64,000 nt of DNA, taken from the NCBI GenBank assembly GCA_012862575.1, contig BLSF01000044.1, forward strand, positions 248,001 through 312,000, in the 5' to 3' direction. The notes under the pieces are model-generated. The model was not told the origin of the DNA. It did no database searches and worked only from the letters and a program-made list of their open reading frames with translations. Position 1 is the stretch's first letter. Each line of letters opens with the position of its first letter. The position numbers and the translations under genes were made by a program. Source of the stretch: Parietichytrium sp. I65-24A. Its lineage: Eukaryota > Sar > Bigyra > Thraustochytrida > Thraustochytriidae. This document shows, one piece after another, positions 9,001 through 36,226 of this stretch.

Positions 9001-12000
9001 TCACTGAGACCTTGAACGATATGTACGAAAATTTCAAGAGCGATCCGTCCGAGGTACAGCGAGAATGGCAAAAGTTCACAAAGTCAAACGACAAACGCCT
9101 TGGAGACGCGCTTCGTCAGACTGTCAAGCGCTCACTACAGGAGCTCTCCAAGGCAATAAATGGAGATGCCAAGACAGAGCCGCAGCAGCTCTTCAAGATT
9201 AATGTCATTTTGGAGAACAACAGCGTCGGCTTCAGGCCGACTATGGTGGAACTGACGCAAACCATAAACATGGTTTGCAAAGACCTTATTAGCGCTGTTA
9301 AAGTGGTGCCGCGGCTCAAGTCTGTCACAATCGACGCAGAGCATCAGTCTGAGCTCGAGCAAGAGCGCGCTCGACAGCATGCGCGGTACTATGACACCAT
9401 TTCGAATGACGAAGATATCTTGAAGATCTTGGTGCAAATTATGAATGGTATGTCATCCTGTGCAACTGAGCTGCAACGATACCTTACGTACTGGGACAAA
9501 TATCGTCCCCTCTGGGAGATGGACAAAGGGGCATTTATTCGCAGGTACGCCAAGGCAAATCGTCCGCTCTCTCAGTACAACTTGGATATTAGCCGGTACA
9601 GAGAGCAGCAGAGCGACATTTCTGCGGAGGATATGACAAGCTCGATAAACTTTGTCAAAATCGACTGTAGTTTGCTGAAGAATTCGCTCATTCATCACTG
9701 CATGCAGTGGCAGAGCAAGCTCACTGGTCTGCTCAACCAGATTGCAAAAGCAGATCTTGATGATCTTTACCAGTTGTTTCGAAAGCATGCCGCCACTCTG
9801 CGTTCTAAGCCACTAAACTTAGACGAGCTCAGCGAGCGCATTCACTTGAAAGACGAACTTCTCGCGCAACGTGAAGCCATTGAATCCCGGTTCGGACCGC
9901 TTGAGCAAAAGTACCAGACTCTGGCTAAATTTGATGTGCAGGTCTCCGATGTCGAGTCCCAGCAACTGAGTTCACTTCCAACCGCATGGGCTGAGTTTAG
10001 GGAAGTGCTGGAGCAATCCGAGAGCTTGCTGCAGAAGGAAAAGCAAAACATGAAGAAAGATCTCGAGTCCGCTCTGAATAGCTTCAACCAGCAAGTTGTA
10101 AGCTTTCGCGAAAGCGCAGCAAGTAGCCTTCCCTACGCTTACCACACAGATGTTGAGACTGCTTTTGAGATTCTCGACGACGTTCGAGCGCGATGCGCGG
10201 CTGTGCGGCTCAACGAAGAGCGGCTGAAGCCTGGTCTGGGTATTTTTCAAATTGAGCTCCCTGACTCGCAAGAGCTCATCTGGACGGAGACCGAGCTCGG
10301 CGTCCTTACGCAGATATGGACACTCATTCGCGACTGGGAGACCACTTGGAAGCAGTGGAAAGACAACCAGTTCGACAAGCTCGTTCTTGGGGACATGGAG
10401 ACGAACGCGGCTCAGTACTCCAAGTTGGTGGGCCGACTCGCCCGAGAGAAAGGAAAAGAAGGCGCGCCAGGAGGGGCCAAACTGTTTGGCTCCTTCCAGC
10501 ATCTTCGCGAGACGATTGACCAGTTCCGACAGACACTTCCGCTCATTCAAGATCTCAAGAATCCTGCAATCAGGCCGCGTCACTGGGATTTGCTTAAAGA
10601 GGAGATCAAGAAAAACTTCGATCCTTTCTCCGAGACATTCACTCTTGCCGCTGTGTTCGCGCTTGGGTTTCACAGCCATGGCGAGTTCATTTCCGAGATG
10701 AGCGGCAACGCAAACAAAGAGCTGGCCATTGAGCAGACACTCGGAGAAATTGAAAAGACTTGGAGCGCCATCGATATCGAGATGGGAGAGTATAAAGAGA
10801 AGTATTGGAAGGTCAAGAGTACGGAGGACATGTTTGCACAGTTGGAGGATAATCAGGTGGCGCTCTCCACCATGAAGGCAAGCAAGTTTTACGTCTCCTT
10901 CAAAGAGAGGATTGAGCTTTGGGAAAGCAACCTCGCCGCGGTGAGTGAGGTGGTCGAGCTCCTCTTGCAAGTGCAGCGCCAGTGGATGTACCTGGAATCC
11001 ATCTTTATGGCATCAGAGGACATTCAAAAGCAGTTGCCAACCGAGTCCAAGCTCTTCGCTCAGGTGAATGCTGACTACGCCGAGCTCACGGAGGAGATTG
11101 TTGCGCAGCCTAACGCTGTTCGTGCATGTGTTAGAGAAGGTGTCTTGGACAAGCTCAACGACATGGACGCCAAGCTTGAGCGTATTCAGAAGAGTTTGGA
11201 CCAGTACCTTGAAACGAAGAGGCAGAGTTTCCCCCGTTTCTACTTTTTGTCCAACGACGATCTTCTGGAGATTCTCGGCCAACAAAAAGATCCAACACAG
11301 GTTCAAAAGCACATCAAAAAGTGTTTTGTGGGTGTCAACGTTCTCACGTTGGTGGAACCTGGCAAGCAAGGAAATAAGACCTACGAAGCGCATGCTATGA
11401 TCTCCAATGACGGAGAGAAGGTGCCATTGTGTCGTCCGGTGATTGTCGATGGCCCCGTGGAAATGTGGCTCAACGATGTTGAGGCGCGCATGTTTGACAC
11501 TGTGGCAAAACAATGCGGACTCACTCTCCAGGCGCACAGAGGAAAGAAAGAAAAGTGGATCAAGGAATGGCCTGGTCAGCTGCTCATCACTGTTGGCGCC
11601 ATTGCTTGGACGGCAGAGTGCACACGCGCACTAGAGACCATGATGAAGGGCGCCAACAAATCTGCGCTCAAGCAGGCTAAGAAGAAGCAGGTGAGCTACC
11701 TGAACCGACTTGCCGATATGGTCCGTGGTCAATTGACGAGAATAGAGCGTAGCAAACTCGTTGCACTGATTACCATGGAGATTCACAACCGTGATGTACA
11801 GGACCGTATGATCAAAGCCAACTGCCAGAATATTAGCGACTTTGACTGGCTTTCACAGCTCCGGTTCTACTGGAACAAGGACGAAGGCGAGTTTGGGGGG
11901 ATCAACGTCCGTCAGACGAATCAGCAAATTGAGTTTGGCTATGAGTACCAAGGAAATAATGGTCGTCTCGTTGTTACTCCGCTCACAGATCGCTGTGTCC

Positions 12001-15000
12001 TGACACTTGTCACCGCATTGGCGCTAAATCGTGGTGGTGCCCCTGCTGGCCCTGCAGGTACCGGAAAAACCGAGACTGTCAAGGATCTTGGCAAGAATCT
12101 CGCCAAGTATGTTGTGGTCTTCAATTGCTCTGACTCTATGGACTACAAGTCAGTAGGTCGCATGTTTTCTGGTCTGGTGCAGACCGGAGGTTGGGGATGC
12201 TTTGATGAATTCAACCGTATCCAGATTGAAGTGCTTTCCGTGATTGCGCAGCAGGTCATGTCCATCATGACGGCAATTGCGCAAAGGAAAAAGCGGTTCA
12301 ACTTTATGGGTGTCGAAGTGCGCTGTAGGTGGAGCTGCGGAATCTTTATCACCATGAATCCTGGTTACGCTGGTCGTACGGAGCTTCCAGACAATCTCAA
12401 GTCTTTGTTTCGCCCAGTCTCCATGATGGTTCCGGATTTGGCTCTCATCGCAGAAGTCATGCTTGCAGCAGAAGGTTTTCGCGATGCCAAGTCGCTCGCG
12501 AAGAAGACCACCACTCTTTACGCTCTGATGATCCAGCAGTTATCGAAGCAAGATCACTACGATTTTGGATTGCGGTCCTTGCGCGGTGTGCTGATGTGTG
12601 CTGGCGCTCTCAAACGCGCGGACGCCTCTGTATCCGAAGAGCTTATTCTTCTTCGCGCTTTGCGGGACATGAACGTTCCCAAATTCATTCGAGAAGATAT
12701 GGAGCTCTTCATGCTTCTCATCAATGACCTGTTTCCCGGCATGGAGACCCCACCAAGCGAACAAGGTCAACTTATCGTTAGCATGCGGAAGGCCTTGTCT
12801 GTACGTGGATTGCAGGTTCACGAGATTATCGTGTCCAAAGCAGTACAGCTGTACGAGTCGAAGCTCACACGTCATTGCAACATGGTTGTCGGAAAGACCT
12901 TGAGTGGAAAGTCGGTTGGATGGAAGTGCCTTGCGGACGCTACCACCATGATGTCCAAAGAATGCCCCGAGGAATTCCAACCTGTTCGTGAGTACGTGCT
13001 GAACCCGAAATCTGTGACAATGAACGAGCTGTACGGAGCCTTTGATCTGGCCACCTTTGAGTGGACGGACGGTATCTTGTCTAATGTGTTCAGATCGTGT
13101 GCGCAAGACGAGAGAACAGACGAGAAGTGGATTGTTCTAGATGGGCCTGTCGATACACTTTGGATCGAGTCTATGAATACCGTCATGGACGACAACAAGA
13201 CGTTGACGCTTATTAATGGTGATCGTATCGGTATGTCCAGCTCGATGTCTTTGCTCTTTGAGGTACGAGACCTCTCAGTGGCGTCGCCCGCGACAGTGTC
13301 CCGCGCTGGAATGATTTACTTTGATGTCGACGATCTTGGCTGGGGCCCATTCAGTACCAGCTGGATCTCCAGACGCCTTGCCAAGGAGGATCAGGTCGCT
13401 GTCGATAATGGAGCCAGGAAGAAGGCGGAGGCAGCCGATTCTAGCGGAGACGGTGAAGAAGGCGGATCCTCAGGTCCGGGGAGCCGAGCTGAGCGTGAGA
13501 GATTTTTCAAGAGTCTCTTTGAGAAATATTGCAAAGGCGTGCTGGCCTTCAAGGCTCGCCAGGTGACTGAGCTGATCCCGGTGACGGACTTTAATGCAGT
13601 CAAATCTCTTTGCAACCTTTTTGACTCTCTTGCCACTCCTGAGAACGGGGTGTGCCCGCACACTCTGCCAGAGTCCTACTTTGCGATGACCGAGAAGTGG
13701 TTCATCTACAGCATGATTTGGTCACTTGGTGCTGCAGCCACGGTGGAGGGCCGCAAGAAGTTCGACGGTTATGTGAGAGACCTGGAGTCCCAATTCCCTC
13801 CCGCCGAGCTGGTCTACGATTACTTTGTGGACGTGGCCTCCAAGGACTGGAAGCTTTGGGATGAAAAGGTCCCGACACCATGGCGCCCGCCCCGTGGAAT
13901 GGATTTTGTCAAAATCACCGTGCCAACGGTCGACACCGTGCGAAACACTTTTGTCACCGAAACCTTGGTTAGCCAGGGATTCGCAACTATGCTGGTCGGT
14001 GAGACAGGAACTGGCAAGACCGTGCTTGCAGAGCAGGTGCTCGAGCAGTTCACGAGCGGCGAGGCGACCAAGCACTCCAAGTTGGTTGTGAACTTCAGCA
14101 GTGCCACGACTTCTGAAACCACACAGGAGATTATAGAAGGTGCCATGGAGAAACGTTCCAAGGATAAGTTTGGCCCACCGGGTGGCAAGCAGCTGATTTG
14201 CTTTGTTGATGACTTCAATATGCCTCGAAAGGATCTGTTCGGTTCACAGCCACCGCTTGAGCTCCTTCGTCAGTGGATGGACTACGGTGGTTGGTACGAG
14301 CGTCAGAAGCAAACTTGGAGGTATATTTTGGACATGCAGCTCCTTGTGGCGATGGGACCCCCTGGTGGTGGAAGAAGTGTTATCAGCGAGCGTTTGCAGA
14401 GCCGGTTCAACTTGATCAACTTCACCCCTCCCAAACCAAAGGATATGGAGAGGATTTTCGCCTCTATTCTCGTTCCGAAATTCCAGGATGGTTTTGACGA
14501 TGAGGTGAAGAGCATGGGAGAGGTGTTAGCTAAGGCGACTGTCCAGCTCTACAACACGGTGGCGAAAACGTTCTTGCCGACACCTGCAAAGTCGCACTAC
14601 CTCTTTAATCTTCGCGATGTTTCGCGAGTCACTCAAGGGCTCCTGATGGCTGATAAGACCCGCATCGACACCAAGGACACCTTATTGCGCATGTGGGCCC
14701 ACGAAGCCTTGCGTGTCTTTGCTGACAGATTCATCGAGTACCAAGACATTTCCACCTTTAGGAACCTTGTTCAGGACCAACTCAGCTCTGTGTTTAGTGC
14801 GAACTGGTCAGACTTGATGGGAGACTGCGAGCGTCCGGATGAGGGTCCGATCTTTTGCGATTTTCTTTCTGAGCCTATTGGTAATTCGGACGATGCCAAA
14901 GCTCCGTACGAAGAGGTGTTGGACATTGGCAAGCTAAAGGCTTTCCTGGAAGAAAAGTTGGAGGACTACAACATGGAGCCAGGTTTCATTCCGATGGATC

Positions 15001-18000
15001 TCGTGCTCTTTCGCGACGCGATCGGGCATGTCTGCAGAATCTCGCGTGTGATCAAGCAGCCTCGCGGAAATTGCATGCTTGTTGGTGTTGGTGGTTCGGG
15101 CCGCCAAAGTCTTAGTCGTCTGGCCGCGTTCACTTGCGAACAGAAGATTTTCCAAATTGAGATTACAAAGCAATACCGGCTCATGGACTTCCACGAGGAC
15201 CTCAAGAAACTGTACATGTCGTCTGGAGGCGAGGGAAGACAAACGACCTTCATTTTTAGCGATACTCAGTTGAAAGAGGAAGCGTTTCTTGAGGATCTCA
15301 ACAATATTCTTAGCAGCGGAGAAGTCCCCAATCTGTACACCAAGGATGAAAAGATGGCAGTGTACGAAGCCGTGCGGCCAGCTGCAAAGAAGGCGGGCAT
15401 CTTGGAGACCGCTGACAAATTGTGGGAGTTCTTTATCGAGCGAACAAGAGCCAATTTGCACATTATCATGTGCATGAGTCCTGTAGGCGAGGGCTTTCGC
15501 AACAGGTGCCGCATGTATCCAGCGCTTGTAAATGGCACGACGATAGACTTCTTTCACCCATGGCCAGCGGAAGCTTTGACAGAAGTGGCTGCAAAGTTTC
15601 TTTCTGACACCAAGCTCGGGCATGGAGAAAATGAACCACATTTGAAGGTTCAAGTTGGAAAGGTATTTGCTCTTGCACACGAGTCTGTGACTCGTGCGAG
15701 CGACCGGATGCTGCTGGAGTTGAAGAGGTACAACTACGTGACCCCGACGAATTACCTGGAGTTGGTAAAGAGCTACAGAGAATTGATCGAGGAAAAGCTG
15801 AAGGAGGTTGGTGACAACCGCGCCAAGTTGAGTGGTGGTTTGACCAAACTCGAAGAGGGCAAGAAACAGGTCGAGGAGATGTCTGTCGAGCTCGAGGCGA
15901 AGAAAGTAATTGTTGCCGACGCTCAAAAAGAGTGTGAGGAGCTTTTGGTTGTGATCGTTGGTGAAAGGCGTAGTGCTGATGAGCGCAAAAAGCAAGTCGA
16001 GGCCCAGGCAGAAAGAATTTCCAAAGAGGAGGCAGAGTGCAAAATTATTGCAGATGATGCCGAAAAGGATCTCGGCAAGGCGCTTCCAGCTCTCGAGGCA
16101 GCTATGGCGGAGGTGGATAAGCTTGACAAGGGTTCCATCTCAGAGGTGAAGGCATACGCTGCTCCTCCACCAGCCGTGGAGATGGTGCTGAATGCGGTGA
16201 TGCTTTTGTTCCAGCTCAAGCCTGACTGGGCTACCGCAAAGAAGAAGATCAGTGAACCAAATTTCTTGCAGCAAATTAAGGCATTTGACAAGGACAACGT
16301 GCCAGCTAAAGCTCTCACCAAACTTAAAGCGATTACGAAGCGTCCGGATTTCAGTGCTGATCAAGTGAGAACAAAGTCTCTTGCTGCTGCTGCACTTTGT
16401 ACCTGGGTTCTTGCTATTGAGCTTTACTCTGGGGTGGCAAAGGAAGTCGCTCCAAAGAGGGCAAAGTTGAAGGGAGCCATGGATAAGCTTGCTTCTGCGC
16501 AAGCATCATTGACGGCTGCCGAAGAGGAGCTTGCTGTGGTAATTGCCAAGGTGGAGGAGCTCAACGAGAAGTATACCACCTCAGTCAATCAAAAGAATGC
16601 TCTTCGCGAAGAAGCTGAAAACCTCGAAAACAAATTGGATCGCGCAGACAAGCTGGTGTCGGGACTTTCCGGAGAGCGCGTTCGCTGGGAGGCTTCTATC
16701 GGAACTTTTGACAAGCTCATGCATGATCTCGTTGGTGACGCTCTTGTGGCTGCCTCCTTCTTGTCATACGCCGGGCCGTTCGACTCGTTATATCGCGAGA
16801 GGCTCGTGAAGCAGTGGCTGCAGGCGACCAAGGAACTTGAGGTGCCGTTTTCCGAAGATTTCAATTTTGCAGCGTTTTTGGCGAAGCCCACGGACGTTAG
16901 AAACTGGAATCTGAATGGGTTACCGAGCGATAACTTTAGTACCGAGAATGGTGTCATCACCACCCGTGGGCGTAGGTGGCCCCTCATGATTGACCCGCAG
17001 GGCCAGGCAAACAAATGGATTAAGAGTTCGAACAGCGAACTGATCGTCTGCACACTAAAAATGCCCGACTTTGTGCGCAAGTTAGAAACTGCGCTGCAAT
17101 TTGGTCTTTGGTACTTGCTTCAGGATGTGGAAGAGGAGCTCGACCCTTCCATCGAGCCGGTTTTGACCAAGTCAATCATTAAAATCGGAAATCGCAAGGT
17201 GATCAAGCTAGGTGACAAGGAGATCGATTATTCTGAGGAGTTTAAATTCTTCATCACCACGAAGCTTGGAAACCCGCACTACACTCCCGAGGTCAGCACG
17301 AAGGTGACATTAGTAAACTTTTCTGTAAAGCAAGAGGGGCTGGAAGCGCAGCTCCTAGGAGAAGTCGTGCGTCAAGAAGAGCCCAAATTAGAAAAGCAAA
17401 AGGCAGAGTTGGTAGTGAAAGTCGCCGAAGGCAAGAACTCCTTGGTGGAGCTCGAGAATTCTATTCTCAAATGCCTTGCAGAAGCCAAAGGATCGCTTCT
17501 GGAGGACGAAGAACTCGTCGAGACGTTGGCGATTTCTAAGAAGACCGCGGAGGAGGTAACTCATCAGCTCGAGGTTGCTGAGCAAACTGAGATAAAGATT
17601 GATGCAGCGCGCCAGGGCTACAGGCCTGTGTCTCAACGAGCCGCAATCCTGTATTTCGTGCTGAATGATCTCTCTCGTGTGGATCCGATGTACCAGTTTT
17701 CGCTTGCTGCTTACAATGAGCTGTTCAACAATAGCATCGTGCGCTCAAGAAGCAAGAGCAGAGGGAACGGCGGAGACGATGATGACGACGATGACGATGA
17801 TGTTGGCATGGAAGACACTGACGCAGACGCTGGCGGTGGAAATTCAGGCGAAGACCTCGAAGCGCGCATCAAGGAGATCAACGATTTTCATACGTACGCT
17901 GTATACGCGTATGCCTGCCGTGGTCTGTTTGAGAGGCACAAGATCCTACTGTCACTACAGATCGCGATCAAAACTTTACAGGCCGACAACAAGCTTCCAA

Positions 18001-20175
18001 AAGAAGAGCTTGACTTCTTTTTGCGCGGCGGAAACGTGGTGGACAGGAGCGACCAAAAGCCAAATCCGGCAAAGGACTTGCTTGATGCGGTCCAGTGGGA
18101 CAATATCACCGAGCTGGACAAGCTCACTGTCTTCAATGGCATAGCTGCTTCCTTTGAGCAGAACAGACGCGAGTGGGCCAAGTGGATGCTCTGTCCATCT
18201 CCAGAGCAAGAGTCCCTGCCGGGAGAGTGGGATAACAAGCTCACGGAGCTGCAAAGGATGCTGGTCGTGCGAGCGCTGCGGATGGACCGATGCCTGAACT
18301 CTTGCATTGGGTTCGTTTCCAGTAACCTCGGAGCGCAATTTGTGGATCCTCCACCTTTCGATCTCAAGGGCGTTTACGCGTCAAGTTCAGCTGCAACTCC
18401 TCTGCTCTTTGTGCTCTCCCCTGGTGTGGACCCCACCAAACAGGTGTACTCGCTCGCCGAGAACATGAACAGAAAAGTTGCAGACTGCAGTCTTGGACAG
18501 GGCCAAGCGCCCATCGCGACAAGGCTCATCAACGAAGGTCTGGCAGAGGGCAGCTGGGTGTTCTTGGCGAACTGTCACTTGGCCGCTTCTTGGTTGCCGA
18601 GTTTGGAGAAAATCATCGAGGACTACCGCGAGGCGAAGAACTACCACAAGAATTACCGGCTGTGGCTAAGTTCGAGTCCAACGCCAAAGTTTCCCCTTGC
18701 AATCTTGCAAATTTCCATCAAGCAAACAACCGAAGCCACCTCGTGGGCTCAAGGCCAATCTCATCCGTTTGTACAACCTCATTTCAGATGAGGACTTTGA
18801 CAGGTGCGAAAAGGGCAACAGGTACAGAAAATTGCTGTTCTGCCTTGCGTGGTTCCATGCTCTGGTGCTGGAGCGCCGCAAGTTCAAGTCTCTGGGATGG
18901 AACATTCCGTACGACTTTAACGATGCAGACTTTTTGATTTGCGAGAACATCATCTGCATGTATTTGGACGAATACGAGGAGACGCCGTGGGATGCTCTGC
19001 AGTACCTGATTTCACAAGCAAATTATGGAGGCCGTATTACTGACGACTGGGACCGAAGGCTGTGCAACTGCTATGTGAACCAGCTCTTTTGTGACGAAGC
19101 TCTTGAGGTTGACAACTTTAGGGTGTCCGAGCTTGACCTGTACTTTATTCCTGACGACGGTGACCGCCAATCTTATAAGGACTACATTTCTAGCTTGCCT
19201 CTAGATGACCATCCTGGATGCTTTGGGCAGCATCCGAATGCTGACATTTCAAGTATGATGACGAACAGCAAGGATGTTTTGGCTGTTACCCTAAGTTTAC
19301 AGCCCCGCGTCATTTCTGCAGAAGGCGAGTCCGACGACGATAAGGTTCTCCAGATTACAAGAGACTTGGCTAAGAAGGTACCGGCACCATTCGACGCCTA
19401 TGAAGCGCGACAGACGGTGGCCTCCAAGTCGGACCCTGCGCCTCTCAAGTCCTGCCTTCTGCAAGAGATCGATCGGTACAATATTCTCTTGCGCACCATT
19501 TCCTCGTCTTTGAAGGGCCTCGAGTCAGGTATTCAAGGTTTCACCTTGATCACTGCCGAGCTTGAAGAGGTGTTTGGCGCTCTTCTAGATGGTCGCGTTC
19601 CAGTTGCATGGGGCACTTGCTACCCAAGTATCAAGCCACTCGGCTCATGGATTCGTGATCTCATGGAGCGCATCGACTTTCTCGCTGAGTGGCTTGAGAA
19701 AGGTGTGCCGAAGGTGTTCTGGCTCAGTGGGTTCACCTACCCGACTGGTTTCCTGACGGCGCTGCTGCAAACCACTGCACGCCGGAACGGAATTTCCATC
19801 GATTCTTTATCCTGGGACTTTCCTGTGTTTGCAGGAGCCGAGATCAACAGTATCGCACAAGGGCCAAAGGAAGGTGCGTACATACACGGTATGTTTATCG
19901 AAGGTGGACGCTGGAACAACAGTGACAACTGCCTTGCCGATGCGAATCCAATGGAGCTCGTCGCAAACATGCCGATCGTTCACTTCAAGCCAGTGGAGAC
20001 CAAGAAGAAGATTACCAAGAGCATCTATGTATGCCCACTCTATTTGTACCCGGTGCGCACCGGAACGCGTGAGCGGCCATCTTTCACTCTCGCGGTGACA
20101 CTAGATTCAGGACCAGTGGACTCTGATTATTGGGTGAAGCGCGGCACGGCACTCTTGTTGGCAACGGCGGACTAG
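6027..20175 (+). CDS. DNAH2: Axonemal dynein heavy chain, DNAH2 type (inner arm I1/f), with one frameshift
   Basis: Motor subunit of a ciliary inner dynein arm, about 4,715 aa, no introns seen. After an N-terminal DHC-N1 tail and linker come the AAA+ P-loops: AAA1 GPAGTGKTE at 2008-2016, AAA2 GKTLSGKS at 2289-2296, AAA3 GETGTGKT at 2658-2665, AAA4 GVGGSGRQS at 3020-3028. A coiled-coil stalk (about 3250-3560) flanks a microtubule-binding region of axonemal type (about 3370-3480). An acidic Asp-run insert lies at about 3914-3942. The end (GGRWN, PMEL, IHFKPVETKKK, YLYPVRTGTRERPSF, WVKRGTALLL) fits DNAH2 better than cytoplasmic, outer-arm or other inner-arm chains. The first frame stops at 18791, but homology continues in the +1 frame: ACC ends at 18731 and the proline codon of TEPPRGLKANL begins at 18736, leaving four bases (18732-18735) where three are expected. 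The start is the first ATG; the frame is open 31 codons upstream without one. Confidence 0.95.
18732..18735 (+). other. Single-base frameshift site in the dynein gene
   Basis: Bases gaag occupy the place of one codon between Thr (ACC, ends 18731) and Pro (CCA, starts 18736). Removing one base restores the family-typical TEPPRGLKANL. There is no homopolymer longer than two here and no room for an intron. If the base is real, translation ends at TGA 18789-18791 and about 480 residues, including AAA6 and the C-terminal domain, are lost. Confidence 0.85.
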
Positions 20176-20397
20176 AGCTCCGGAACGGCGCGCGCCATCT
20201 TCACACAACGAAGAACAAAATATAGCGACTAATTGTAAGAAGAACAAAATTACTGTGAGAATAAAAGCGCTGTAGATCTTTCAAAAGTTGTCATTCAAAT
20301 CAAGATAGAAGACGTTTCAAGACATTCGTTCCGTTCGATGCATAGATAGGTACTGACTGTGAGTTTCGGTATGTTTCGGTACTCGCGACGCACGAAG

Positions 20398-21841
20398 TTA
20401 GATAACTCCGGGAACGAAAACATACGGAACCTTGGACTTGTAGACTGGCCAATCGGATCCATACTTTTGAGCGCAAGCGTGGTCGTCGCGCAAAGCTCTG
20501 TGCACCAGGAGAATGAAGAAGTAAATCGGGTAGAAGTAGGTGACAATACAGCCCGTTCCTGTAGTCATGGACCAAGCCAGTCCCATAAGCCAGTCTCCTG
20601 TGTAGTTGATCTTGCGAGCAGCTCCCCACCAACCGGAAATCAGCAACTTCCTGCCTGACTTGGTGGTCAACGTCTTGAGGTGTTTCACGTCCTGCAAACA
20701 AAATCGCAGAGTCAGTTTTCGATCTACGAGAAAATTTCATACGAAAGGAAATCAAAAAGTTGCATATACTTACCTCGCCGTTCGAGTCGCGGCGAAAAGC
20801 GTCCTTTTGAGAGTTGGCTCCCCTGAAGATGGTGTAACCAATGGCCTTGAGAGCGCAGATGAAAGCCAGGTGCGGCCAGGAAAGACCAGGGCTGTTTCGA
20901 ACGAGGTATCTTGCCTGAAGGGAGTACGAGAACGGAACCCAAGCGAGGTCGCCGAAACAAAGCATCCATCCAAACCCGTCAGTGGTGATGTCCATCGTAG
21001 TCAGAATGGCCCGCTCATGGTACACTGCGTCAAAGACGTACAAGCCTTGGAAGAGATTGATGAGGATCATTTCTGGTGTGACGCGCCCAAGTTCCTCGTA
21101 CTGCTTGAGAGCACATCCAGCGTTCAGCACGCACCAGCCGATGAGACCAGGGCGCAGTTCGCAGAACTCTTTCAGGTCGAGGTCCCCAAAGATGCGGGGA
21201 TTTAGTTCGCGTCCGATGAAAAAATCGTAGATTGGGTTCCCCGTGTCACCTCCCTTCGCAAGCAAGGCTCCTTTGACGTGCGATTTGGTGTACAAGAAAA
21301 CGGACATAAGAAAGGTGAGGACAACCGCTGCGGACGCCAACTGGATGTAGTGATCGTAGAGCCAGGAGAGCGGGAATGTGCTGAGCTTGATGAGTGTACC
21401 GTCCTCGCCAAAGTATGGGAAAGCGTGCCCGAGAACGAGTAAAGTGACCCAGAATTCCAGGTGAGCGCTGATCCGGTAGTGTAGCCTCTCTCCGGTTTCC
21501 AAAACGACTCCTTCTGCCTTCTCGTGAAACAGCAGCCGCTCCATCAGCACGTGGGCAGCGAACCATCCAATGACGACTGCCACCGCATTCCAGTCCCACA
21601 ACTCTGAGAGATCTTTCGGGATCTGCTCCTCGAGTTCCAAGTAGTTTGCAAAGTTGAACTTGTACTTGTCCGACGCGCCATAGTACAAAAACGCGATCAC
21701 CACGGGCAGCGCCAGCATCGTGGCAGCCGCTCCCACAGGTCCCCCGAATTCGTACTCCACATGCTTGCTCTTTTCCACGCTCTGCCTCGCGCTCTCCGCT
21801 GCTGCCGAACTATCTCCCGTCTTTTGCTGTCTGCGCCGCAT
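20398..21841 (-). CDS. ERG24: Delta(14)-sterol reductase (ERG24/TM7SF2/LBR family)
   Basis: NADPH-dependent reduction of the C14-C15 double bond in sterol synthesis, in the ER membrane. Two exons: 20774-21841 and 20398-20691, joined across an 82-bp intron (20692-20773; donor GTAAGT, acceptor TTTGCAG). The product is 453 aa, normal for the family, with about eight to ten hydrophobic segments. Family signatures: NPRIFGDLDLKEFCELRPGL, GANSQKDAFRR just before the intron, LISGWWGAARKINYTGDW, YFYPIYF, and the terminal RDDHACAQKYGSDW with PYVFVPG. DELRPGL-type residues and WWG favour C-14 reductase over DHCR7, which is the main alternative. The ATG at 21841 gives a short hydrophilic N terminus; a further upstream ATG at 22006 lies in a GAAT repeat and is less likely. 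The gene converges on the dynein (222-bp gap). Confidence 0.9.
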
Positions 21842-23049
21842 TCTTCTCTCCCTCCGACCCTTTTGTCCGCCGCTGTTGTGTGTCGCAGTGTCGCCTGGGA
21901 TACCTGCTGATGGACGCGCGATAGACGCTGTGCCACAGCGGAGAGGCGGAGAGGCGGAGAGGAATGAATGAATGAATGAATGCAATGAATGAATGCAAGC
22001 GTTCAAAGAGAGAGAGAGTTGGAAGAGTTGGAAGCCCGAAGATATGTTTGCGTTCGTGCAAGCCTGAGTGCACTCTTATGCGTCCCACTGTCCAGGGAGT
22101 AAGGCTTCGCCGCTTCTCCATGTGCCTCTCGCAACTATGAAGGGTTGAGGGTATTGATTGTCGTGATGGTGTGATCAATCGCTGAATGCGCTGCCAAGCA
22201 TGTCTGTCATCAGCATTTCATTCGTCTCTGTGATTGATTGATTGATTTGCTGGATTCCTTTTTTAATTAAAACCAAGACAAGCTTTGGAAAGAGCTTTCT
22301 ATCGACGGCATCAACGGTGCCATTCGCATTCCCCGCGACATCTTCTTTTGATCGTTCAGTTCACTTGGCAATGTTCATTCATTTCGAGAAAATTGGCTTT
22401 GTGCTTAGAGTGAATTCTGAATTCTGAAGAAGTGGTCGATGAGCCTGATGACTCTGAAGACAGACAGAGTGAGATCATGATGGCTAAGCCTTGCAGTCAG
22501 CTCAACGAAGTGGTCTTCAATATCAAGACATATCAAGACATCCCGACTGACTGTGCGAAAGAAAACAAACTCCAATCCAATCCAATCCAATCCGAATGAT
22601 CTTTGATCATGATGTGATCAAAATGATCTTGATCAAACCAATGTTGACGACATCATCTCCCTCTACGCTAACTAGAGCTCTAGCCACACGTATACCAATA
22701 GCTAGCTAGCAGTTAGCCATTATGCGAGCTGAGCTGAGCCTCGGCGTTTCACTAAATGAATACTATTAGGAGTAGGACTTGTATGGAAAGAGTACAGGAG
22801 TAACTCAGGAACGCATTTTATGGAACAGACGAACGATTCACGATCAAGGAGCATTTCCTTGAGTAACGTTGCACACAAACATGCGTAAACCCTGTTTGAG
22901 GTTGAGGGGACGGAAACCTCGACGTATCGCGGTCCTCGAGGACAAAAAAAAGTGTCCCCGCGAGCGTGTTGAAACAAGCCGATCAGTTGGCAGCTAGTGT
23001 ATTATCATCGGCAGCAGAGGGAGCCGTATGTTCATTTCGTGAAGGAGAG
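21842..23049. promoter_or_regulatory. Divergent promoter region between sterol reductase and centrin
   Basis: 1.2 kb between divergent start codons. It contains a (GAAT)n repeat at 21962-21995, (GATT)n at 22232-22248, four tandem TCCAA pentamers (reading as CCAAT) at about 22571-22592, and several TGATCA palindromes at about 22596-22640. No protein gene or RNA gene is recognisable. Either promoter could use the CCAAT cluster, but nothing proves it. Confidence 0.5.
22571..22592. repeat. (TCCAA)n / CCAAT pentanucleotide run
   Basis: Four perfect tandem TCCAA units read as repeated CCAAT elements on the + strand, immediately followed by TCCGAATGATC and a set of TGATCA palindromes. It lies about 460 bp upstream of the centrin ATG and 730 bp upstream of the sterol reductase ATG. 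Confidence 0.7.
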
Positions 23050-28885: not shown

Positions 28886-31708
28886 ATGCTGACGAGTCTT
28901 CGAGACAGCTTGGCCGCGGCAGTGAATGGGGTGCGAAACGAAGTCGACCAGATGGCCAAACTCACTTCACCGGCAGGCACCCCGGTGACCGGAAGATACT
29001 TCCACAAGTCTGGTTGCGCAAGCTCGCCGGAGCGGCTGGATCAAGTGCGCCATTCAAGAAGCAGGTACAGAGAGGAGCTGGTGGTGGAAGAACAGAGGCA
29101 AAAGCACTGGGAACAGAAATACAAGGCTAGGGAAAGAGAGTTGCTGGCGAAAATGTCGCACATGGAGCAGGAAATCAGCGCGCTTCGGGCGAACAACGAC
29201 AGGCTGCGATGGGAGCCAAAAAAGGCTCGAGACGGCTTGGTGCTCCTAAGTGTTTCGCTTTCCAGCGTGTTTGTAGTTTTGTGCTTTGCGCTCTTTGCTA
29301 TGGCGGAGCGCCAGCGCGGCCAGCACAGGACATGGGAAGACCAAGTTCAAGGCACGGTGTTGCTGCTCCTCGGGGCCGCACTGCAGTTTGGATCAGTTCC
29401 GCTCACTCATCTCAGCGGAAGGTACCTTTATGGCAACTTTGGGTTTCGCTTTTATCAACCGGGAGAGGGGGGCCAAGCATTTTGCATTCTACAAGGATTC
29501 TCTTGGTACCTTTATGGGCAATTTTTGGCTCTCGTTATCATGGCGGTACTTTTTGAGTGCCCAGTGGGAGTGGTGACAGCATCCGGTGCATCTGGAGCGC
29601 TCTCACAGGTCTTGATGGTCTCTTCGTTGTTGAGCTTCAGGCCCAACCAACTCATACTGAAAGAAAAAAGACGCAGGCTGAGTGTTGATGGGTACAGTAG
29701 CAGTGGAAGCACAAGCTTTAATAGTGACGACGAGCTTGATATTTCTTCTTCCTCGCCTCTGACACCAGATCGGCTCAATGGAAGACAAAGGCTGGCAAAC
29801 CTGATAAATACGAGGAGGAGGAAAACAAGCTTTGACTGGCAAATGTCTGCGGACAAAGGATTAGAGTTTGACCTCTGGCTGGACGCTGAGACACCTTGGA
29901 ATACTGGCCTCGCCACCTACGCCATGGACACCGACACGGCTCTCTTTGCATCGTTTGTGGGACTTCAGTTTTCTCTTGTGGTCATATCTCTCGCTCTCGG
30001 GTTTATTGCCGAGAGAGCTGCCGTGAGTAGCGCACATCGCGCAATTTGTGGTTCAAGCGCAGTTGTACTTCTCGTTTCAGGCCTGATTTTGACTCAAACC
30101 ATGGGCGGCTCGCTCTTTCATAGAGCGTCTTGGAAAGCTTTCAAGCCTTTCGCCGGTGGAACCCGATTCCTCCTTCTTCAAGGTATCGTTTGGGGCCTCT
30201 TTGCGGCATGCTTGGGGACCCAGGCATCCTTTCTGGGGGTGCCTCTCTATATATCAAGCCAGCTGGTCTCGGTGACAGGAATGCCGATGACATCCGCTGG
30301 GCTAGTCGCAATTGCAGGGCACTTCCTTCTTGTTCTCTCCATCAGTTATTACAACGAGCATGAGCGAGCTGCGACCGTGAAGAAGTCGGACATCCCACAG
30401 CAGATATTACAGGCCTCGACACACTTTCGCTTTGAGCAGGTCAAGGGTGAAGATGCCCTGAGGCGGTTTCACAATAGAATGAAGCGGCTCTCTGGGTTGA
30501 GAGAGATAACGGGAACACTTGTGGTCGCAATTCTTTGCAACACGCAGTACTTCATATTTGTGTTTGCTTCCTCGCTCTTCTACGCTCCGCTGCCACTGCT
30601 CTGCGCGATCGGGCCCGCGCAATTTTGTATTGAGCAGCCTGCGGACACCTTTGAGGGGCTGCAAAAGTTCTCTCTATGTATTTGCGTATTCACGATAGGA
30701 TACTCTGTGCTGAAAACCTTCAATATCCGCGGAACAGTGCGCACGGTCCTACTCATGTTACTCACCGTCATACCGGTTTCGATTACCTTGTACATGCATC
30801 AAGGATCTCCGTTGCAGCCCCTCCTCTGGTCAATCTGCGGAATGTTTGTTTTTTATATCTACAAAACCTATAGCGGATCTCCAGAGGTGACTGGCTGTCG
30901 AGAATGGCAAGCTTTTCAGAAAGCAACATGGCTATGGGATCTGTGGGAAGATTATCAAGGTGCCGAGCTGTTCACAGACACATACTTGGACAAGTATGAA
31001 AAGGATGACGGGGGTGCAACGATCGGATCCAATGAAAGCTCGGTGAAGCAGGCAATTTGCTGCTTCCACCCTCACGGAATTTTTCCAACAACCTTGATCT
31101 GGCTCCCGAATTCGCGAATGTTTCGCAACCGCTTCCCAGGTTTTTCTTTGACATCTATGACCGCCTCTATTATTCACCTGACTCCCGTCATGAGAGATGT
31201 TGCGCAATGGGCAGGGGTCAGAGATGTAGGGAGAGCGTCCGTGGATCACGCGCTGAAGACCGGATCGAATCCGATGCTGGTCGTTGGCGGGCAAAGTGAG
31301 ATGTTCCTTTCGAAGTCCTGGACGCCTGGTATCAGTGTCCATCGTGGCCACCGTGGCTTCATCCGTATGGCTATAAGGCATGGCGTCCCTCTACTCCCGA
31401 TCTTCTCATTCGGTGAGCACAAGTCAATGGACAATGTCCACTTGCCGACCATGCAGAACTGGTTTAAGCAAAGGCTTGGTTTTCCGATCCCATATTTTCC
31501 ATACGGACGATGGTTTCTCCCAATCACGCGGCGCACCCCAGTGACTGTTTGTGTAGGCGCTCCTGTACACCCAGTTCGCCGCAACGCGGACCCCACTGTT
31601 GAAGAGATTGAGGAACTCCATGCTCGATATTTCTCTGCGCTTCACGAGTTATTTGAGCGCAACAAGGAGCGATGCGGCTTTCCTGATGCTCAGATAGACT
31701 GGGCGTAG
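28886..31708 (+). CDS. Polytopic membrane protein fused to a C-terminal DGAT2-type acyltransferase
   Basis: Single-exon gene, 940 aa. The C-terminal 250 residues are a DGAT2/MGAT-family acyltransferase domain, which joins acyl-CoA to diacylglycerol (or a related acceptor) in the ER: FHPHGI with catalytic-type His at 728 and 730, then GRASVDHAL, MLVVGGQSEMF, HRGFIRMAIRHGVPLLPIFSFGEH. Ordinary DGAT2 proteins are about 330-400 aa with one hydrophobic hairpin. Here about 690 residues precede the domain: a charged helical N terminus (about 40-115), then some ten or more hydrophobic segments. Two of them share a motif, GG-x-x-F-x-x-LQG-x-x-W, at about 196 and 425, suggesting internal duplication. 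A Ser-rich hydrophilic loop lies at about 255-325. The frame is open upstream from a TTG; I chose the first ATG. Substrate could be diacylglycerol, monoacylglycerol, wax or sterol; DGAT activity is an inference. Confidence 0.85.
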   Translation: MLTSLRDSLAAAVNGVRNEVDQMAKLTSPAGTPVTGRYFHKSGCASSPERLDQVRHSRSRYREELVVEEQRQKHWEQKYKARERELLAKMSHMEQEISALRANNDRLRWEPKKARDGLVLLSVSLSSVFVVLCFALFAMAERQRGQHRTWEDQVQGTVLLLLGAALQFGSVPLTHLSGRYLYGNFGFRFYQPGEGGQAFCILQGFSWYLYGQFLALVIMAVLFECPVGVVTASGASGALSQVLMVSSLLSFRPNQLILKEKRRRLSVDGYSSSGSTSFNSDDELDISSSSPLTPDRLNGRQRLANLINTRRRKTSFDWQMSADKGLEFDLWLDAETPWNTGLATYAMDTDTALFASFVGLQFSLVVISLALGFIAERAAVSSAHRAICGSSAVVLLVSGLILTQTMGGSLFHRASWKAFKPFAGGTRFLLLQGIVWGLFAACLGTQASFLGVPLYISSQLVSVTGMPMTSAGLVAIAGHFLLVLSISYYNEHERAATVKKSDIPQQILQASTHFRFEQVKGEDALRRFHNRMKRLSGLREITGTLVVAILCNTQYFIFVFASSLFYAPLPLLCAIGPAQFCIEQPADTFEGLQKFSLCICVFTIGYSVLKTFNIRGTVRTVLLMLLTVIPVSITLYMHQGSPLQPLLWSICGMFVFYIYKTYSGSPEVTGCREWQAFQKATWLWDLWEDYQGAELFTDTYLDKYEKDDGGATIGSNESSVKQAICCFHPHGIFPTTLIWLPNSRMFRNRFPGFSLTSMTASIIHLTPVMRDVAQWAGVRDVGRASVDHALKTGSNPMLVVGGQSEMFLSKSWTPGISVHRGHRGFIRMAIRHGVPLLPIFSFGEHKSMDNVHLPTMQNWFKQRLGFPIPYFPYGRWFLPITRRTPVTVCVGAPVHPVRRNADPTVEEIEELHARYFSALHELFERNKERCGFPDAQIDWA

Positions 31709-32676: not shown

Positions 32677-35148
32677 TCAGAATAGAAATGCTCGATCTGC
32701 CTGCAAGAAGTGTAGCACAACTTTCTCAGCCATCTGGCTGAGAGTGCTCTCCTTCTTCTCGCCCGTTATCCAATTCGGAAGATCGAATGGCATATTGGCC
32801 TGGGGAGATGTCTCTCGAAGCCGCTCCGCGGCTTCACTGGGTCTCATCAGGCTCTGTGCGAATATAGCTGCAAGATCGCGCGGCGAGGTTCTGTTGTAGC
32901 TTTGGTTCTTGACCACCTCTCGTAAAAACGTGATTATGTACACAAACACATTATGAGAGAGCGGCGGGAGCTGCTCCAAAAACCTCCGCCCCCACGTCTC
33001 CATCGCCACGTTGTCAACGTCTACCTTTGGAAAAAGAGAAAACGGAACGACAGGCTCCGGAAGAGCGTCCAAGAACTCTAATAAAATCGCTGCGACCGCA
33101 TGTGCCATGCTTTGTCCGCCGTTGTCTTCAGGCACCAGTTCTTGGCCATTGTCGATGCATCGCCGTACAGTGGAAAGCTTGTCTGCGGTCGCAAACCGCT
33201 TGCTCATAACGAAAAGAGAAGGGGTTTTCAGCAAGTCGTATATCCAGAAAAAATTGCATAACCACCAAATCTCTTTGGGAAGCTTCAGAGGCTGGTGCGC
33301 CTTGTCCTTTCCAAGCCTTGTCGCGCGATCCAGCATGACGGCTTCTTTCTCGTCAGGATGTGCCGCAAAAGGGGCATGTGTCCTGACGAGCTGACTCAAG
33401 GCAGCACCGAAGCAAGTTGGCACCAACGCAGCCGACGCACAAATGAAGTGATCCTGGCCATTTTCTAATCGCAACACTAATATATCGTCCAGAATGTCCA
33501 CGCCAGAAGAAAGCGATCGAGCGGTGTAGGCGTCCACTTGAGCGATGGCAGACACTTGTACAGAGGAGCCAGGCGTGAGAAGCCCAAAGTCTGGTTCCAA
33601 GCGCAGCCAATGTTTTGAGATGGATTGGTCTTCAAGTTTTGGTATGAATCTCCAGGTAACTGGGACGTGCCCGACATTAGAGATTGTGACTTGCTCTACG
33701 CGACGCTCCATATAAGTGAGCCCGCCTTCGAATGCGAGTGCATTTTTGTCCAACTTAATCTGTGGGCGCTCCGCGTTTTCCCATTTGTCAAGCTCTCGAA
33801 TGATTTGATGGAATACTTCTGAACGCTTGGATGGCATCTTCTCTCGGATTTTTGCTTCAAACAGCGCATATACGGGCTTGTGATCAGATGCGGTCAGAGT
33901 GGGACAGCTCATGTACTTTAAGATGCGAGCATGACTATCGTTGACGTCGCGCCAAAGAATTCTATCACAATACGCCGGTGCTCTGATTTTCTTCTCCGGG
34001 CGCCGATCATAACTGTTTGTGCCTGGTTGAAACTTGTAGGTTGGAAGAAATTGAATTTCGCCTTCCTTGAAACCAGCAAAAGCGCGTCCTCCGTTTTGTT
34101 CTATGAGCAACTGGTCATTCTCCCGAAGCCACTGCAAATTGTTCGAGTCCACGTGGAAAAAAACGGTCTCAATCGAGTGCTCCATCGCAATTCGATAGTT
34201 GAAGTCTCCAAGCCAAAACACATAGTCATGGTCCACAATCCCAAACGATGTGTCGCTCAAGATTGGCGTGAGACTTAGACTGCTGATGTTATTCTCTTCC
34301 CAGCCGGAGCTCGTCTCGCTGCTGCCGCCTGCGCCCGTGGCAACCACGCTCGTTGAGCTACCTCCAGTCAGATACGGTGCGATTTGCGAGGAAGGTCCTC
34401 CAGACACGCCAGGATTGAGGGCGACAGCCTCGTATGCTTTGCGATACATGCGCTGTCCATCAGGAACCATGAGAGTTGCGTCGGCAGGACACGAGAGCCT
34501 TTCTTCCGCGCTCTTTTGTGACATGACATGGACGTCGTCTCTAAAAGAGGTCTTCGCCATAATATTTCGAAAGTCGGCATTGCGTGAGTCTACGGCCTCG
34601 CGGTGCGCTGCAAGATGGGCGCAAACGAAGCAAAGGGTGGTGTCATACAACTGGAAGCGGATGGACACACCACCTTTGTTGCCCATGCCCATCACCCCGG
34701 TCGGGGTCACCGCCGTTTGAATCGACATCTGTAGCAAGTTTTTCCGATGCTCGTCCAGAACAAACACGCAAAGCATAATCCCGACCAGATGCTTTGACGT
34801 TACAAACGCATACCTCGGCCCACCGTACATCTTGCTGAGCGTCGCTGCAATCGTCTCTATCCACACCTTACACCGGTCTGTGCTGCTCGAGTCCATCACC
34901 ACGTTCCCTGCGGTCAGGTCCACCATCTCCTGAAACCCAAGCACGTACACGTCCGGCATGCGCCCAGCCCCTCCAACCGACAGCCAGGCGTCCAGCGACT
35001 CGGTCGGTTTCTTCCCGTTCACATTCCAGGTCCCCACGAACACCTGCAATTGCCGATGCCTCACGAACTCGTCTTGCCTCTTACGCAGCTGCTCGCGGAG
35101 CCATTCTTCGCGAATTTTGTGCGACACATCACCGCGCCCGCTCTCCAT
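32677..35148 (-). CDS. OCRL: Inositol polyphosphate 5-phosphatase, OCRL/INPP5B type
   Basis: Removes the 5-phosphate from PI(4,5)P2 and related lipids on endosomes, Golgi and ciliary membranes. 823 aa, one exon. The catalytic domain opens with VFVGTWNVNGKKP (about 36-48), followed by GFQEMVDL, GNKGGVSIRF, WLGDFNYRI (about 310-317), PAYCDRI (about 390) and SDHKPV (about 422), which carry the metal and catalytic residues. An ASH-type beta domain follows (about 470-590), then a C-terminal RhoGAP-like domain. That domain has LFVMSKRFAT where active GAPs have an Arg finger, so it is probably inactive, as in human OCRL. The N-terminal PH domain of animal OCRL is absent. The frame extends 14 codons upstream from GTG; the ATG at 35148 is used. 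Confidence 0.9.
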   Translation of the reverse strand: MESGRGDVSHKIREEWLREQLRKRQDEFVRHRQLQVFVGTWNVNGKKPTESLDAWLSVGGAGRMPDVYVLGFQEMVDLTAGNVVMDSSSTDRCKVWIETIAATLSKMYGGPRYAFVTSKHLVGIMLCVFVLDEHRKNLLQMSIQTAVTPTGVMGMGNKGGVSIRFQLYDTTLCFVCAHLAAHREAVDSRNADFRNIMAKTSFRDDVHVMSQKSAEERLSCPADATLMVPDGQRMYRKAYEAVALNPGVSGGPSSQIAPYLTGGSSTSVVATGAGGSSETSSGWEENNISSLSLTPILSDTSFGIVDHDYVFWLGDFNYRIAMEHSIETVFFHVDSNNLQWLRENDQLLIEQNGGRAFAGFKEGEIQFLPTYKFQPGTNSYDRRPEKKIRAPAYCDRILWRDVNDSHARILKYMSCPTLTASDHKPVYALFEAKIREKMPSKRSEVFHQIIRELDKWENAERPQIKLDKNALAFEGGLTYMERRVEQVTISNVGHVPVTWRFIPKLEDQSISKHWLRLEPDFGLLTPGSSVQVSAIAQVDAYTARSLSSGVDILDDILVLRLENGQDHFICASAALVPTCFGAALSQLVRTHAPFAAHPDEKEAVMLDRATRLGKDKAHQPLKLPKEIWWLCNFFWIYDLLKTPSLFVMSKRFATADKLSTVRRCIDNGQELVPEDNGGQSMAHAVAAILLEFLDALPEPVVPFSLFPKVDVDNVAMETWGRRFLEQLPPLSHNVFVYIITFLREVVKNQSYNRTSPRDLAAIFAQSLMRPSEAAERLRETSPQANMPFDLPNWITGEKKESTLSQMAEKVVLHFLQADRAFLF

Positions 35149-36226
35149 CGCGCCTTCCCCGCTGCGCACACTAGTTCTTTCAATTCGCACACTCCAACGC
35201 CGCCCGGGAGGAAAACAAACAAAACAGGCAAAGTCGCAATCAAACTACCACCGCCACGGCGAGAGCGAACGAATCCTAAGGCTCCAATCCTTTAAGCTTC
35301 CAAGCTTTTCCGCAACGGTGAACACAAAGTCCGCGTCCTTGACCTCTCAGCCTCTCAGGCGCTTCGGAGCCCTTCCGCTCTATTGCGAGAGGCAAGAATT
35401 AAGAATCAAGAATCAAGAGGCGCCAGAAACTTCCTGACCGTGCGACCTTCCTGACCTGGCGACCTGGCGCGTATGTATTGGCACCAACGCGCACCGGTAA
35501 AGTGTGCTGCGCGTACGTCACATACGCATGGGCTTGGTTCACACCGTCCTTCGTTCGCTCGTTCCTTCCTTATTTCTTCCCTGTAGAAAATAGTGTAGTA
35601 CACGTAAACTTTGACCATCTTATTCTTATCTTCCTCTATTTTTTTTGACAGGTACTCGGTGCTCACACTCGCCGTCAAGACATGTCAAGACATGTCAAGA
35701 CACTGTGGAGGTTGAATCGAGATGGAAAGTGAAACGAAGAAAGCAAGAGAAAAAGCATTCTCGGCCGCCGAAGATTTTTGAGCTCGCGTTTCGTTTCGTT
35801 TCGTTTCATTCGTAGTCATTTTGGCGGTTGACAAACAATCAGACTCTGAGGCAAAGAGATGGATAGATAGATGATAGGTAGATAAGATAGGCTCCAATAC
35901 CTATATCATGTAGGTCACGCAGCGGAAACCCAGTATACCAAAGCATGGCGAGAGTGGGTGGTGAACTTTAGATTTTGATTTTGGATCCCTCTTTGGGTCT
36001 TGGGCTCGAAGATCATATGATGGTGGACGACTCGTGCAATCCAAATTGTGTGTTGTTCATCGGAAATGAAGTATAGATGGATGGATGGATGGATAGCGCT
36101 GCATTGCTGTTTGTGCCGGTGGAGACGCACGTTGTGGAAAGATGCGGAATAAAATCGCGAACCAACCATCATTCGCTGCAAGCTCATGAGACGCCGCTTT
36201 GAAACCGCAAAGGACGACGAAATGCT
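35149..36226. promoter_or_regulatory. Phosphatase promoter region and kinase 3' flank
   Basis: 1.08 kb between tandem - genes. It holds three tandem ACATGTCAAG units (about 35676-35702), GATA-rich repeats at about 35859-35890, and a (GGAT)n run at 36076-36096. No gene seen. The phosphatase promoter must be in the left part. Confidence 0.5.
36076..36096. repeat. (GGAT)n microsatellite
   Basis: Five GGAT units about 130 bp beyond the kinase stop codon on the - strand; likely in its 3' flank. Confidence 0.8.

Follow-up and report, generated by a model that had tools for sequence, protein, structure and literature searches.

A probable sterol acyltransferase of the DGAT2 family carries a duplicated membrane module that recurs on other putative lipid enzymes

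Fusions of a DGAT2 domain to a long N-terminus with many membrane segments are already known in thraustochytrids, where DGAT2B and DGAT2C, and ASATa and ASATb, were published in 2021–2023 (PMC10686087, PMC8821962, PMC8714446; cited here from partial texts). The Aurantiochytrium proteins DGAT2A, B, C and D are 350, 911, 857 and 517 aa long, with 7 membrane segments predicted for DGAT2B and 13 for DGAT2C; 'YF' is kept in all four, and PUFA-fed yeast carrying DGAT2C synthesizes PUFA-TAG (Lan et al., PMC8714446). The ASATs of this build were reported to have N-termini that resembled no PDB entry then available, and to be missing the YFP motif (Rau et al., PMC8821962). DGAT2C of A. limacinum is located in the ER and acylates sterol in vitro, and its knockout loses sterol esters but not TG (Ishibashi et al., PMC10686087). 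The same study found that the enzyme needs H644, the third residue of HPHG, as well as TM9–10, whereas TM1–8 are dispensable; a C-terminal fragment of 53.1 kDa (TM1–8 removed) was active and one of 39.1 kDa (TM1–10 removed) inactive. Removal of TM1–8 left an enzyme that still reached the ER and still worked, increased the amount of DGAT2C protein and raised the sterol yield more than threefold, while in yeast the ester level was unchanged by this deletion (PMC10686087). TM1–8 are not identified as a known domain in the available text of that paper.

We analysed a stretch of 64,000 nucleotides (the window), which contains an intron-free gene of this build on the forward strand (28886..31708), encoding 940 aa and a stop codon. 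The layout in print is a membrane region followed by a DGAT2 domain in 857–911 aa, and the window protein has the same order in 940 aa. The frame, coordinates and length in the initial annotation were all correct, and so was its description of a DGAT2 domain fused to a long multi-membrane N-terminus, as the whole lies in one open frame. Its suggestion that the protein represents an undescribed type of acyltransferase, however, fails in view of the published enzymes listed above. Two separate genes, or a frame or assembly error joining the parts, are unlikely because a paralogue on contig C25 is collinear with the window gene over three segments, in the same order and in a single open frame. 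In each of the five parts into which the frame divides, GC was lowest at the second codon position, and third-position GC was 0.68 in the head and 0.52–0.57 in the other parts. Elsewhere in the window we noted an ERG4/ERG24-family sterol reductase gene (20303–22006, reverse strand; PF01222, E 2.5e-86), about 7 kb from the gene studied, and an OCRL-like inositol 5-phosphatase with ASH and RhoGAP domains (32680–35190, reverse strand).

The protein starts with a charged helical head (residues 1–112; 28886..29221, +), as seen in a single-sequence structure model with a mean pLDDT of 40.3 for the whole protein; within the head, pLDDT was 67–77 for residues 1–20, 68–80 for residues 61–100 and mostly below 50 for the remainder. 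The only Pfam family listed for residues 1–690 was PF05557, a weak match to the head below the cut-off (E 0.05). Hydropathy, used in place of a dedicated predictor, gave 18 overlapping 19-residue spans above 1.5, which merge into nine stretches, some of two-helix length; the 'ten or more' hydrophobic segments proposed initially are thus plausible. Between the duplicated part described below and the catalytic domain lie two hydrophobic stretches. The first, residues 543–590 (30512..30655, +; hydropathy over 543–582), presumably corresponds to the published TM9–10, and similarity to the C25 paralogue resumes at residue 543. The second, residues 615–662 (30728..30871, +), has one hydropathy peak at 617–635 and would be a hairpin with a presumed second arm.

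The C-terminal domain, recognized as DGAT2-type from the letters, was borne out by Pfam. DAGAT (PF03982) covers residues 722–934 (31049..31687, +) with E 7.1e-34 and 117.5 bits (cut-off 22), and is the sole match above cut-off in the protein. The motifs FHPHGI, MLVVGGQSEMF and RHGVPLLPIFSFGE are all present, with the active-site motif HPHG at residues 728–731 (31067..31078, +). The YFP motif, which precedes HPHG in yeast and in the DGAT2 gene on contig C2, is absent from the window protein, where the aligned place reads YQG; the letters YFP are present farther along (PIPYFPYG), in a different place from the aligned motif. The genome contains at least six DAGAT genes, since PF03982 matched six different genes once each: C2 (513 aa from the first ATG), C25 (863 aa), C83 (905 aa), the window gene (940 aa), C30 (846 aa) and C87 (390 aa). 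The C2 gene is a standard DGAT2 with 303.6 bits to PF03982, HPHG and YFP. The C25 paralogue (contig C25, L001 1481–4072) is a long DGAT2-like protein in which HPHS replaces HPHG, with activity that may be altered or absent. The C30 protein (contig C30, L002 1229–3769) is likewise long and DGAT2-like and has many hydrophobic segments. The motif is followed by 212, 215 and 231 residues in the window, C25 and C30 proteins, respectively.

The N-terminal membrane region contains an internal duplication. A GGxxFxxLQGxxW motif had been noticed twice, at about residues 196 and 425, and we found that the two occurrences start at residues 195 and 424. They belong to two copies of a module, spanning residues 128–254 by profile (29267..29647, +), with the first helix beginning by eye from about residue 113, and residues 359–492 (29960..30361, +). 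A linker at residues 256–345 (29651..29920, +) contains 13 Ser, 13 Lys/Arg and 13 Asp/Glu. The Smith–Waterman score of the two copies was 77, a value reached by none of 2,000 plain shuffles (mean 32.9, maximum 72) and none of 2,000 class-preserving shuffles (maximum 67). A profile built from 12 copies in other genes found both places with 68.1 and 65.5 bits, respectively, the best of 900 shuffled decoys scoring 8.6; this is a consistency check rather than a fully independent test, because the window protein had served to find the source genes in the first place. The duplication claimed at the outset is, therefore, real, and the protein has two similar membrane halves, as some transporters do. 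When a profile of all 14 copies (below) was run against the 920 window frames of at least 40 aa, it returned the two copies and, in the same frame, a meaningless one-residue row at −2.7 bits.

The module is not confined to the window gene. We searched the 42.5 Mb assembly (172 contigs) with the whole protein, obtained 18 matches and read eight other loci; a motif scan of the nine proteins gave 14 module copies in six genes, namely two each in the window, C25, C51 and C21 genes, one in C83 and five in C67. Dropped from this count were a second motif match in C83, which lies at residue 644 of the open frame within the DGAT2 domain, as well as C34 and C11 (matches in the head region), C16, C57 and C20 (matches outside the modules) and C68 (a stop codon in the matched letters). 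Neither protein searches with C67, C21 and C51 nor a DNA pattern search added a seventh module gene, although single-sequence searches may miss weak copies; the DNA pattern gave five matches and its reversed control one. Of the 91 pairwise alignments of copies, 85 scored at least 5 standard deviations above 60 shuffles, and well-supported inner branches numbered 0 of 11 in the module tree. The 14-copy profile detected no module in the C30, C2 and C87 proteins. C30 is long yet has no detected module; the module is, therefore, not a requirement of a long N-terminus.

By type, the module-bearing genes comprise three DGAT2-like genes, one NSDHL-like, one HSL-like hydrolase and one without a recognized domain. 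The C51 protein has a 3Beta_HSD domain (E 5.6e-45), and its single PDB match at E ≤ 1e-10 was a sterol-4-alpha-carboxylate 3-dehydrogenase (6jkg, E 2.9e-18); all NCBIfam models listed for it were below their cut-offs. Its sequence is that of an NSDHL-like enzyme, as would act in sterol C4 decarboxylation. Three further loci resemble it (E 3.2e-23, 1.1e-13 and 4.5e-4), and C51, therefore, need not be the sole such enzyme. The C67 protein (contig C67, L008 1905–6113; 1402 aa) combines its five module copies with Abhydrolase_3 (E 2.8e-19); hormone-sensitive-lipase-type matches were under their cut-offs, and its PDB matches were esterases (best E 7e-8). For C21 the best Pfam match had E 0.05, so that no domain reached E ≤ 0.01. 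What looks new here, judging from these sequences, is that the duplicated module is a separate building block, found also on NSDHL-like and HSL-like enzymes. No mention of it on other enzymes was found among the papers listed and the passages covered by the literature search.

In the module profile G75 and W87 are invariant, G58, P72, G76 and F79 nearly so, and mean column identity is 33%. The module probably has four helices, as indicated by hydropathy and by the shape of a poor two-row structure model (pLDDT 51.9). At fixed motif offsets, Lys/Arg amounted to 13.0 per 100 in the helix 2–3 loop, which holds the motif, and to 3.2 in the helix 3–4 loop, whereas the helix 1–2 loop had 11.0 Lys/Arg and 8.6 Asp/Glu per 100. 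The values for the 2–3 and 3–4 loops suggest that the motif faces the cytosol; that for the 1–2 loop does not fit. A Pfam scan of all 14 copies gave no confident match, with 16 families listed, each in one copy (best E 0.0027, DUF7937), and a DAD match under the cut-off (E 0.019) covers part of the second module of C25. The module had no PDB match at E ≤ 10. A relation to Erg28 (PF03694) was rejected, as this family is missing among those listed for the 14 copies and had no match in the genome at E ≤ 10; the absence from the genome is weak, because that search reads exon by exon. Among prokaryotes and viruses, 12 and 5 stretches, respectively, matched the N-terminus pattern and 0 were confirmed as relatives, in scans that find close relatives only.

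On contig C141 (L009, L010), which is mitochondrial, TTA is apparently a stop codon. COX1 was located there via PF00115, and in the 389 codons read none of the 24 TTR codons was TTA (24 TTG), while 16 of 16 Lys/Glu/Gln codons ended in A; a neighbouring frame, judged by eye to be COX2, has three TTA codons, all of them ahead of its first ATG. The code with TTA as a stop is NCBI code 23, that of Thraustochytrium mitochondria. The apparent TTA stop thus supports a labyrinthulomycete host, and the protist origin assumed initially holds by this usage. As for other genes, no match to a PfaA-type PUFA synthase, considered as a further host marker, exceeded the profile cut-off in the genome, although long models may miss matches; contig C66 has a 5583-aa open frame (about 8562–22499) that the PfaA profile matches in part at several places.

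Taken together, we consider the window protein to be probably an ER sterol acyltransferase of the DGAT2C/ASAT type, with dispensable add-on modules. This reading is favoured because PF03982 occurs with an intact HPHG, because the layout and motif spacing resemble those of published DGAT2C, because YFP is absent, as Rau et al. report for ASATs, because the apparent mitochondrial TTA stop points to a labyrinthulomycete, and because an NSDHL-like enzyme carries the module too and a gene of the sterol reductase family is situated some 7 kb from the window gene. It is also favoured by where the truncation fragments map: by mass, the 53.1 and 39.1 kDa fragments would start at residues 475 and 599 of the window protein, the former close to where module 2 ends and the latter just past the 543–590 stretch, in a rough size match. 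Residue 475 is within the final helix of module 2; in C25 the corresponding starts are 404 and 527, with 404 likewise inside the second module. On the other side, mapping by mass alone is inexact, C25 and C30 are nearer DGAT2C in length, and Lan et al. reported PUFA-TAG synthesis by DGAT2C and a kept 'YF' where the window protein has 'YQ'. The genome also has at least two MBOAT loci, so conventional acyltransferases are possible as well.

An enzyme of this type would, in the ER membrane, transfer acyl groups from acyl-CoA to sterol or a closely similar acceptor, forming storage esters. Its catalytic core would be made up of the last membrane segments (published TM9–12) and the DGAT2 domain with the HPHG histidine. 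The two front modules would be an add-on unneeded for catalysis, a dispensable regulatory or tethering unit that may govern how much enzyme there is, how stable it is or where it is placed, probably via membrane reading or partner binding. The substrate and the other properties of the A. limacinum enzyme are taken by analogy to carry over to this likely paralogue, and the function of the module is inferred from its partner domains and from the published truncations.

Tentatively, the module could be an undescribed lipid- or sterol-responsive control unit that jointly adjusts the amount or position of enzymes, a separately arisen counterpart of the sterol-sensing domain. It would then sit on enzymes making (NSDHL-like), storing (ASAT-like) and releasing (HSL-like) sterols or fatty acids, and the rise of DGAT2C protein after removal of TM1–8 would reflect a loss of control; the effect of the module may, however, be indirect, because the yeast ester level was unchanged by that deletion. 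It is also conceivable, if hardly firm, that the modules bind one another and bring enzymes of sterol and lipid metabolism together at a single ER site, in the manner of Erg28, which is a scaffold for the sterol demethylation enzymes of yeast. Such a scaffold would account for one module being common to acyltransferases, a hydrolase and an NSDHL-like enzyme, and the exon-by-exon search found no Erg28 match in the genome (weak evidence), but the module has no sequence link to Erg28, and the enzyme without TM1–8 is still ER-located and working (PMC10686087). We regard it as doubtful that the window protein is instead a PUFA-selective diacylglycerol acyltransferase, with a membrane region that admits long unsaturated acyl-CoA or diacylglycerol: its catalytic domain does belong to the DAGAT family and TAG was obtained in PUFA-fed yeast with DGAT2C (Lan et al., PMC8714446), but the dgat2c knockout keeps TG and loses sterol esters, sterol is acylated in vitro (PMC10686087), and a standard DGAT2 exists on C2. 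Movement of lipid or substrate across the membrane, the transport role first envisaged for the N-terminal region, would suit two similar membrane halves but is very improbable, as the published dispensability of TM1–8 for sterol-ester formation (PMC10686087) speaks against an essential transport role, copies per protein vary from 1 to 5 and no transporter family matches consistently.

The genome suggests that TM1–8 may represent a separate domain, present twice, that other lipid enzymes carry as well. If this domain controls enzyme amount, a similar truncation could be tried at several sterol and lipid steps in industrial protists. Sterol-sensing domain proteins include SCAP and HMG-CoA reductase; there, too, a membrane domain sits on sterol enzymes and may control protein level, but this is an analogy only, and the number of helices differs.

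As a probable DGAT2C/ASAT-type sterol acyltransferase, the window protein shares its catalytic domain and HPHG with the standard DGAT2 (C2 gene, 513 aa), in which no module was detected and which has YFP in place of YQG. Aurantiochytrium DGAT2B (911 aa) and AlASATa, presumably the same protein, are alike in being long and DGAT2-like with many N-terminal membrane segments; DGAT2B pairs better with C83, which has 905 aa and a single module, than with the window gene, a pairing made on length only. DGAT2C, with 12–13 predicted N-terminal membrane segments, and A. limacinum AlASATb share with the window protein a long multi-segment N-terminus and a C-terminal DGAT2 domain with HPHG. The first His of the motif is residue 642 of 857 in DGAT2C, with 215 residues after it, and residue 728 of 940 in the window protein, with 212 after it; the latter is 83 residues longer, the two being compared by length and layout rather than by sequence. 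C30 (846 aa) is also nearer to DGAT2C in length than the window gene. C25 is closest, both in length (863 versus 857 aa) and from motif to end (215 residues), although its HPHS is unlike the HPHG of DGAT2C. Because C25, and not the window gene, best matches DGAT2C in length, the window gene is probably a paralogue rather than the orthologue of DGAT2C.
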